From the NCBI GenBank assembly GCA_024278345.1, contig JAJRTK010000415.1, positions 1 to 6,744 of the forward strand: a DNA stretch of 6,744 nt, given 5' to 3'. Below are positions 3,721-6,744 of this stretch, piece after piece (position 1 is the first letter of the stretch; each line of letters opens with the position of its first letter). Both the position numbers and the translations under genes were made by a program. Under the pieces are notes generated by a model, which saw only the letters and a program-made list of their open reading frames with translations, searched no databases and had not been told where the DNA came from. The stretch is from a bacterium (lineage in GTDB: Bacteria; CSSED10-310; JAJRTK01).

Positions 3721-6504
3721 ATGCAACAGATGGCCTTGGCCCAGCAGATCCTTTCCGACCGCTTCGGATTCGAGTCGTTCCGGCCTGGACAGCGGATCAT
3801 CATCGAAGCGGTTCTGGCGGGTCGCGACGTATTGGCCATCATGCCAACGGGTGCCGGGAAGTCGCTATGTTACCAACTTCCCGCTTTGGTTTTCCCTGGC
3901 GTAACGCTTGTAGTCTCGCCGCTCATCGCGCTCATGAAAGACCAGGTAGACGCGCTCCAGAGGCGCGGGATCCCCGCCACTTTCGTCAACAGCTCCATCA
4001 GCCTGTCCGAGCAGGAACAGCGTCTGTTGGCGTTGCGGTCCGGCACGCTCCGCCTGCTTTACGTTGCCCCAGAGCGGTTTCGCAACCGCGCCTTTCTTCG
4101 TGCAATGGAATCGGTGCGCCTGTCGCTCCTGGCCATTGACGAAGCACACTGTATCAGCCAGTGGGGGCACGATTTTCGGCCGGACTACCTTCGGTTGAGG
4201 CAGGCCATCGAGAATCTTCGGCCGGATCGCGTCTTGGCGCTCACCGCTACGGCCAATGCCAAGGTCCAGATCGATATCGTGCAGCAGATCCCCCGGCCGG
4301 CGATCCAAAAGTTCGTGGGCGGGTTTGATCGGCCAAACCTCCATTTCGCCGTGGATCGCCTTTCCAAGAAAGCGGAGAAGCTGGAGCGCCTGTTGGAACT
4401 GGTGCGGCGCCTGGAAACCGGCATTGTTTACACTGCCACGCGGAAAGCCGCTGAAGAGGCGACCCAGTTCCTGACAAGCCAGGGGGTTTCGGCCCTTTGC
4501 TACCATGGCGGGCTGGAAGCTGGAGATCGCCGTCGGATCCAGGATCTTTTCATGGGCTGGGGGAAATCGACCGCGGAAGGTCAGGAGGATGTCCAGGACG
4601 GGATGCCGAGGGACGGAGCCAAGCCTCCGGCCGTAGTCTGTGCCACCAACGCCTTCGGAATGGGGATCGACAAGGCCGATATCCGATTTGTCATCCACTA
4701 CCAGATGCCCGGAACCTTGGAGGCATATTATCAGGAAGCCGGCCGCGCTGGCCGCGATGGCGCGCCTTCGGAATGCCACCTTCTCTATTCGGCGGTCGAC
4801 GTGCGCATCCAGAAGTTCTTCATCGAAGGAGAGAACCCCCCCCGCGAAGCAGTGGAGGCGCTCTATGCAGTACTTGTGGCTGAAGCGCGCCGCCATCCCG
4901 AGGCCATCGTCCAAAAGACCCAGGACCAACTTGCGGAAGATGTTCCAGAGTTCCCGAATTCCATGGGGGTTTCCACGGCCCTCAAGCTCTTGGAGTCCGC
5001 GGGACATCTTTTGCGGCTCTCTCGCTCCACCCACACCGCCACGTTCGTCTTGGAACGGCCTCATGCCCATATTACCGAACGGGCGAAGGTGCAGAGAAAG
5101 ATTCTTCAGTCCCTCAAAAAACTGGCCTCCGCAACGGGGATCGTCGAGATCTCCCTGGAAGCCCTGGCCCTGTACACCGGCCTCAACGATGCTTCGCTCA
5201 GGCGCGGGATCCATGCCCTGGAAAACGCCCAGTTGATCGAATACCAGCCGCCTTTTCAAGGTAGGGGCGTTCGCCTCACGGAGCCGGTCCCTCCGGAAAA
5301 ACTCAACATCGATTGGGCCGCCCAGGAACAGAAGGCCGCGCATGCCTACGAAAAACTCGAGATCATGCGCCAATACGTTTTTTCCCGCGCCTGCCGCCGG
5401 GCTTACTTGTTGCGTTATTTCGGGGAGAAGAGCGTGGCCGGGAACTGCCAGAATTGCGATGTCTGCGGGACCGGATCCCAGCGGCGGGGCGCCTCCGGAT
5501 CAATCGGCGCGCGGCAGACTTCGTTGAAGCGCGTTCCCACGGAAGGTTCCGCGCCGCTTCCTCCCGGGTCACCCCGGGAAGACAAGATCATCGTCCTAAA
5601 GGTCTTGAGCTGCGCGGCCCGCCTTCGGAATCGGTATGATCGTCAGACCCTCCAGGAAGTACTGCGCGGGGAACGGAGCTTGGCCGTTCTAGAGGCGGGA
5701 CTGCACCGAAGCATCAAGACTTACGGGCAACTTATCGAGCTTCCTGCCGAGCGAGTATCGGCCTGGATCGAACGGCTCTTGGAGGTCGATGCCCTCCGGC
5801 AGGACTCCAACCATTGCGAGACCGGCACTCTTCGAGGAGGGCGGATGCATCTTACTTCCCAAGGGATGCGGCTCATCCGCCAACGGGAGCATCCCGCGAC
5901 GATCTTTCCGCGCCTCCCGGAACACCATCCCACCTTTTCAGCAACAGAACCCTACGACGCCCCTCTCTTCGCCAAGCTCCGGATGGCCCTGGCCCGGCAT
6001 CTAGAGGAACGCGACCTTGACCAACAACGTGCTCTTTCAGATTCGGTCCTCCAGCAAATCAGTCGCATCTATCCCATGACGGTTCGCAAGCTCCGCGGAG
6101 ACGCCGGTCTCACGCCGGAGCAACGCAGACTTTGGCAACCACTGATCTTTGAGGTGGTGGGTCGTCATCTCGGGGAGCAGGGTGTGGCATCCGCTCCAGA
6201 GGATAAGGAACAAACCAGAAAACGGCGTGCAGGCGGTTCCAGGAAGAATCTCGCCGCCACGGAGAACCTCAGCGACGAAGACTATCAACTGTTTGAGGCC
6301 ATCAAGGAGTGGCGCCTGAAAGTGTCAAAAAAGAGGCGGCTTCGCGCATTTCAGGTGCTGACCGATAGCGACATTTTCGAGTTGTGCCGCACGCGGCCAA
6401 GGACCCACGCGGAGTTGCGCGCCGTCCACGGGTTTGGCCCCAAGAAGGTCCAGCGCTACGGAGACCTCCTCTTGGACCTCATTTTGCGCCACAAACCCCG
6501 TTGA
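3721..6504 (+). CDS. recQ: RecQ-family ATP-dependent 3'-5' DNA helicase with winged-helix insertions and two HRDC-type domains
   Basis: RecQ enzymes unwind forked, recombination and G-quadruplex DNA during repair. The helicase core (about 5-365) has motif 0 FGFESFRPGQ (15-24), Walker A MPTGAGKS (41-48), DEAH (140-143) followed by the aromatic loop CISQWGHDFRP (144-154), LTATA (174-178), ATNAFGMGIDK (308-318) and QEAGRAGRDG (338-347). A loop of about 21 extra residues (about 279-300) precedes motif V. Residues about 375-525 look like two winged-helix units, absent from E. coli RecQ. The zinc site follows: C558, C576, C579 and C582. Next come the RQC winged helix (about 620-720), a divergent HRDC-like domain (about 742-817), a basic linker (829-842) and a typical HRDC (about 850-924). 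At 927 residues it is about half again the size of E. coli RecQ (about 610). The start is the first ATG after an in-frame stop at 3694-3696; the ATG at 3730 is an alternative. A C8 tract lies at 4836-4843. Confidence 0.95.
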   Translation: MQQMALAQQILSDRFGFESFRPGQRIIIEAVLAGRDVLAIMPTGAGKSLCYQLPALVFPGVTLVVSPLIALMKDQVDALQRRGIPATFVNSSISLSEQEQRLLALRSGTLRLLYVAPERFRNRAFLRAMESVRLSLLAIDEAHCISQWGHDFRPDYLRLRQAIENLRPDRVLALTATANAKVQIDIVQQIPRPAIQKFVGGFDRPNLHFAVDRLSKKAEKLERLLELVRRLETGIVYTATRKAAEEATQFLTSQGVSALCYHGGLEAGDRRRIQDLFMGWGKSTAEGQEDVQDGMPRDGAKPPAVVCATNAFGMGIDKADIRFVIHYQMPGTLEAYYQEAGRAGRDGAPSECHLLYSAVDVRIQKFFIEGENPPREAVEALYAVLVAEARRHPEAIVQKTQDQLAEDVPEFPNSMGVSTALKLLESAGHLLRLSRSTHTATFVLERPHAHITERAKVQRKILQSLKKLASATGIVEISLEALALYTGLNDASLRRGIHALENAQLIEYQPPFQGRGVRLTEPVPPEKLNIDWAAQEQKAAHAYEKLEIMRQYVFSRACRRAYLLRYFGEKSVAGNCQNCDVCGTGSQRRGASGSIGARQTSLKRVPTEGSAPLPPGSPREDKIIVLKVLSCAARLRNRYDRQTLQEVLRGERSLAVLEAGLHRSIKTYGQLIELPAERVSAWIERLLEVDALRQDSNHCETGTLRGGRMHLTSQGMRLIRQREHPATIFPRLPEHHPTFSATEPYDAPLFAKLRMALARHLEERDLDQQRALSDSVLQQISRIYPMTVRKLRGDAGLTPEQRRLWQPLIFEVVGRHLGEQGVASAPEDKEQTRKRRAGGSRKNLAATENLSDEDYQLFEAIKEWRLKVSKKRRLRAFQVLTDSDIFELCRTRPRTHAELRAVHGFGPKKVQRYGDLLLDLILRHKPR

Positions 6505-6541
6505 GCAAGTCAGGGTGACCACGCAAGGCGGGACAGAACAG

Positions 6542-6650
6542 AAAAAAAAGGAAAACGCGTAGCGTACAAAAACGTGGGTCCAGGGAGCACGCTCCCTGGT
6601 GGGTGCAGGGCGAAGCCCTGCCAGGGGATGGAATCCCCGGACCACCTACG
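6542..6650 (-). terminator. Possible intrinsic terminator for leftward transcription entering from the right
   Basis: On the minus strand the hairpin block (6650 to 6573) ends in a stem strand, ACCCACG, directly followed by TTTTT (6572-6568). After a short ACGC/GCGT hairpin comes an 8-T run (6549-6542). Stem plus U-tract is the intrinsic-terminator form. It would serve a gene converging on recQ from outside the window. For recQ itself, reading rightward, these tracts are A-runs and no terminator is seen. Confidence 0.35.
6573..6650. other. Cloverleaf-like fold: closing stem around three hairpins
   Basis: On the plus strand CGTGGGT (6573-6579) pairs with ACCTACG (6644-6650), seven pairs including one G-U. 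It encloses three hairpins: CCAGGGAG/CTCCCTGG (6580-6587 with 6592-6599, loop CACG), GCAGGGC/GCCCTGC (6605-6611 with 6615-6621, loop GAA) and GGGGAT/ATCCCC (6624-6629 with 6633-6638, loop GGA). It resembles a cloverleaf in outline only: no anticodon arm, TPsiC arm or CCA end fits a tRNA. Whether it is transcribed is unknown. Confidence 0.5.
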
Positions 6651-6694
6651 GGTAACGCGCGGCGTGACCCGCCGAGCGATAGCGAGGCGTTGCC
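6651..6694. other. Second stem domain of the right-hand element
   Basis: GGTAACGC (6651-6658) pairs with GCGTTGCC (6687-6694), eight pairs with one wobble. Inside, CGGCG (6660-6664) pairs with CGCCG (6670-6674). The stem begins at the base following the cloverleaf closing stem, so the two domains could stack coaxially in RNA. It is part of the inverted-repeat element; function is unknown. Confidence 0.4.
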
Positions 6695-6744
6695 CGGACG
6701 CTTGCGATTCCACGGTCCCGGGAATGTCCCGCCTTGCGTGGATA

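Follow-up and report, generated by a model that had tools for sequence, protein, structure and literature searches.

Among described non-autonomous DNA transposons (MITEs), QMITE1 and QMITE2 of Coxiella burnetii come close to the family described here in their size, their ends and their overlap with genes: they are high-copy and hairpin-rich, have terminal inverted repeats (TIRs) of 17-29 bp and overlap open reading frames, and QMITE2 has 7-9-bp direct repeats (PMC5896051). QMITE copies affect functional annotated genes at their 3' ends, whereas two copies of the present family lie in the middle of long open reading frames; the likeness is one of published description. Likened on the same descriptive rather than sequence basis, the Chunjie MITE of Geobacter uraniireducens belongs to the 235-bp class, with size variants (178-235 bp) and dozens of mostly intergenic copies bearing conserved ends and direct repeats (PMC10969869); it comes from another organism, and our family differs from it in a far greater number of ends and in end types that are interchangeable. 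MITEAba12 of Acinetobacter also lacks a transposase gene, is bounded by TIRs with 9-bp target-site duplications (TSDs) and is thought to be mobilised in trans (PMC6382973), but it is uniform (111-114 bp) and a helper insertion sequence, ISAba12, has been proposed from matching TIRs, whereas none was found for the family studied here. The mosaic TIMEs of Pseudomonas are likewise non-autonomous, with shared TIRs and varying interiors (PMC4133298), but have 38-bp Tn3-type TIRs and 5-6-bp TSDs as against 23 bp and 8-9 bp. Precedents for in-frame insertion into genes exist in Rickettsia palindromic elements, which interrupt unrelated protein genes, and in other MITEs (PMC10969869); in our family most copies lie outside genes. 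MITEs are thus well known as a kind. The present family and its mix-and-match ends nevertheless appear to be undescribed, since the MITE literature searched (ISfinder lay outside its scope) describes other families only and the exact TIR had no match in IMG/VR or in about 85,000 GTDB species genomes, collections that may lack the record of the window and those closest to it.

Results

The element downstream of recQ

The window, the whole stretch of DNA analysed, comprises 6,744 nt of a contig from an uncultured bacterium of the phylum CSSED10-310. With a probability of about 0.95, the element that follows recQ in it is one copy of a MITE with 23-bp TIRs, a hairpin-rich interior devoid of a transposase gene, and 8-9-bp TSDs [Table 1].

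Table 1. Coordinates of the recQ-adjoining copy, its parts and its neighbour in the window.
Feature	Position	Strand	Basis
recQ (DEAD helicase, Helicase_C, RecQ zinc-binding, RQC and HRDC domains); neighbour, outside the element	3721-6504	+	Pfam
GCAAGTCA, the 8 bp separating the recQ stop from the MITE; expected target duplication, left copy (right copy beyond the contig)	6505-6512	+	sequence
MITE copy	6513-6744	+	alignment with 20 other copies; 23-bp ends and flanks
Left TIR, GGGTGACCACGCAAGGCGGGACA (family consensus GGGTATCC...)	6513-6535	+	repeat search, end comparison, end typing
Left subterminal module, type T2 (GAACAGAAAAAAAAGGAAAACGCGTAGCGTACAAAAA)	6536-6572	+	typing of 195 ends
Central GC-rich hairpins CCAGGGAGC/GCTCCCTGG, GCAGGGC/GCCCTGC, GGGGAT/ATCCCC	6580-6642	+	fold, alignment, covariation analysis
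Right TIR, TGTCCCGCCTTGCGTGGATA(CCC), last three bases beyond the contig	6725-6744	-	repeat search, alignment

A first-pass annotation of the window had drawn attention to a perfect 17-bp inverted repeat in a non-coding element at 6519-6741. The repeat is real, its arms (6519-6535 and 6725-6741) being 100% complementary and 189 nt apart, and our rough estimate of about 1e-4 per window for pairs this good within 250 bp agrees that it is unlikely to have arisen by chance; the coordinates proved slightly short once the family was compared. When ends were compared across the organism's own genome, the family terminal repeat was found to be 23 bp long (GGGTATCCACGCAAGGCGGGACA), the 17-bp repeat being its inner part. 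The perfect match in the window copy ends at 17 bp because its left outer six bases, GGGTGA, differ twice from the family's GGGTAT, and a copy altered in this way may no longer be mobile. On the right, the contig breaks off before the last 3 bp; the full length would be 235 bp, with an A-rich end of type T2 on the left and type T1 on the right.

No protein accounts for the element, as had been claimed: there was no protein family match, and the window's open reading frames across it are short frames only, two of which are open across the copy on the minus strand. A search for the right-hand flank by means of the expected duplication GCAAGTCA gave best matches with three mismatches, which were not accepted, and a RecQ search of named genomes for a syntenic empty site gave a best identity of about 50%, with no near relative.

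Abundance in the genome

The multiple copies that would be expected of a mobile element are present in very large number. When the organism's own genome was searched with the window element, at least 12 copies spanned nearly its full length (E <= 1e-83), and some 40 places in all scored E < 1e-50; there are many partial copies as well. The 23-bp end, with up to three mismatches, occurs at 413 sites (196 + 217), against 0 for a reversed-pattern control. At two ends per element this suggests about 200 elements, an estimate of our own in which ends can be orphaned or nested, and we estimate that the elements amount to near 0.8% of the 6.06-Mb genome. The same end, at the same tolerance, was found at 0 sites in seven other genomes of the phylum, and a DNA search of 40 other genomes gave matches of chance strength only. 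All copies have the terminal inverted repeats in common and are short, without a transposase gene; paired copies mostly measure 168-360 bp, two longer ones reaching 517 and 673 bp.

Target duplications and empty sites

Among 39 elements with both ends in place, taken from 1.39 Mb of contigs partly picked because they carried ends, 24 are flanked by TSDs of 8 or 9 bp: 13 are exact over 8 bp, four exact over 9 bp, four have 7/8 and three 8/9 matches. An earlier 1-Mb subset yielded no full matches, and no excess, at lengths of 4-7 or 10-12 bp. This constant length derives from copies other than that in the window. Similarity between copies stops sharply at their ends, as the first-pass annotation had anticipated of a mobile element, the boundary being that of the 23-bp repeat and not of the 17-bp one; beyond it lie the 8-9-bp duplications.

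One element lies within the end of another copy, flanked by the TSD TATCTACG. If the element and one of the two duplicates are removed and the flanks joined, the interrupted end is restored and can be recognised as one of its type, with slight divergence. Together with a paralogue that lacks an insert (see below), this makes two places in the genome at which an empty site can be seen, neither of them at the recQ locus, where the right flank is missing. Copies are many and dispersed, with empty sites on record for the family except beside recQ.

Insertions into genes

A kinase/AAA/TPR protein of 1397 aa (C512) contains a 244-bp element with an 8-bp TSD, inserted in frame. A paralogue on contig C250 aligns to residues 31-925 and 1011-1379 of this protein, with 2 residues between the two segments as opposed to 85 in the interrupted protein. 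A 168-bp copy lies in frame within a 1873-aa helicase-like open reading frame whose nearest matches in the phylum cover chiefly the helicase part. These are the only two clear in-frame gene insertions among the 24 elements with TSDs; a further candidate, L315, was left out of the count because a probable signal peptide begins only downstream of its insert.

The kinase/AAA/TPR proteins form a very large family, with 162 matches in the organism's own genome, some of which are MITE frames, and 237 in genome G003. An open frame of 765 aa on the minus strand of L216 (contig C373, 347-2641), which by eye resembles an exosortase, runs through a copy of a second MITE family that seems nested in an element of the first.

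End modules, hairpins and a second family

By simple patterns, 195 distinct ends fall into eight subterminal types. In 44 distinct elements an A-rich end (T2, T3, T6, T8) is mostly paired with an end of another class (T1, T4, T5), the commonest pairing being T3-T1 (n=17), followed by T2-T1 (n=9), that of the window copy; the types were defined after the ends had been viewed, and the counts are therefore descriptive and do not amount to a test. An additional hairpin of some 35 nt (CCCGTTGC...GCAACGGG) is found inside the central hairpin, at alignment columns ~70-108, in about half of the 21 aligned copies; the window copy lacks it. The same hairpin was also seen near second-family copies, and may be a separate tiny repeat.

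The second MITE family has the TIR GGCCTCGGTCATGGTACCGGCCA, is usually about 203 bp long and likewise has 8-9-bp duplications; the CCAGGGAGC/GCTCCCTGG hairpin is common to both families. Positions 1-109 of the window are the right part of a second-family copy, with a perfect 23-bp end at 87-109 on the minus strand, so that MITEs stand at both ends of the contig. Another second-family copy (L229, contig C5, 334-536) interrupts an ISL3 transposase relic, with the TSD TTCAAGC(G) on each side.

Search for a helper transposase

Comparison of the ends with transposases of the same genome, suggested in the first-pass annotation, produced no match to any family tested; an autonomous relative sharing the TIRs is usual for a MITE but not obligatory. 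The search (PF01610, PF01609, PF12762, NF033572, PF00872) covered ISL3, DDE_Tnp_1 (IS4/ISAs1), IS1595, IS256 and ISKra4. Derivation from ISL3 was rejected, the relic on C5 being followed by GGCGAAGAGCC, that is, an end GGCTCTTCGCC (by eye), which differs; so was derivation from IS1595, copies of which on C322 and C295 begin with the different GGCTCTATATGCG (by eye). The ISKra4 family has 8-9-bp TSDs and ends beginning GGG; the ISKra4-like relics on C17, C481 and C464 are weak, below cut-off and broken, with no matching ends nearby. A DDE_Tnp_1 fragment, ISAs1-like by eye, lacks these ends where its ends are readable, and no IS256 transposase was found in the genome. Self-comparison of open reading frames for multi-copy transposases over 1 Mb returned mostly MITE frames, the six others listed looking repetitive or hypothetical by eye. 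The helper may have been lost, may be unassembled or may belong to a family other than those searched; the assembly is 87.9% complete, and the helper may therefore be missing from it.

Discussion

High copy number, precise ends, target duplications and insertion both into another copy and into a gene characterize this family, and bear out the earlier proposal of a MITE-like mobile element. By the mechanism we envisage, a DDE transposase acting in trans would recognise the 23-bp repeats and cut out or copy the element, with insertion at a break staggered by 8-9 bp; the gene of this helper would itself be bounded by GGGTATCCACGC... The hairpins could be passengers or could aid in bringing the ends together.

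The first-pass annotation had also offered a repeat-derived structured RNA, and one may ask whether the sequence is primarily a non-coding RNA or cis-acting RNA element, such as a recQ terminator or mRNA stabiliser, repeated because it is useful. The dense internal structure that was reported is indeed there (-119.6 kcal/mol for the single strand versus -87.3 +/- 4.9 for shuffles, z -6.5), and the position 8 bp past the recQ stop and the combination of an A-rich tract with GC hairpins would suit such a role. Rfam, however, has no family that matches at gathering score, and relaxed thresholds added nothing of note, there is no terminator-like site at the recQ element, and compensatory change affects one of the 56 consensus pairs in 21 copies (covariation term -0.19). 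Hairpins almost without covariation leave an RNA role unsupported, and the target duplications and nested insertions require transposition rather than RNA function, making this explanation very improbable. The copy beside recQ is most likely without function, an insertion tolerated in the space behind the stop codon.

We give still less credence to two other explanations. Palindromic repeats of the REP/BIME/REPIN type, spread by a RAYT (Y1) transposase or in some other way, share with our elements their high copy number and location largely outside genes, but 23-bp TIRs accompanied by 8-9-bp target duplications are, to our knowledge, not a product of REP/RAYT movement, and the duplications in particular disfavour this origin to the point where it is scarcely credible. 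That the repeats are an artefact of assembly or binning, through contaminating contigs or chimeric joins, might be suspected from the many contigs, the window's included, that end inside a copy; short-read assembly nevertheless ends contigs at real repeats too, and dozens of copies are contig-internal, their flanks being unique and their duplications matching on both sides, so that an artefact is hardly conceivable.

Within the MITE reading, the copy number, the interchangeable ends and the hairpins held in common with a second MITE family are the notable features. A tentative joint reading, which we regard as rather unlikely in its entirety, is that the family spread combinatorially by shuffling of end modules (A-rich T2/T3/T6/T8 versus T1/T4/T5/T7) and exchange of hairpin cassettes, the latter shared with a second family of different TIRs, and that open frames let in-frame insertions persist as new protein segments.

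The findings add a MITE family of high copy number from a phylum so far thinly sampled (eight genomes) and help account for the break-up of this genome into 550 contigs. They also call for caution, as gene calls near or through MITE copies include element-encoded peptides. Finally, the two large proteins with a clear in-frame insertion provide a usable case for studying how mobile DNA turns into protein sequence.
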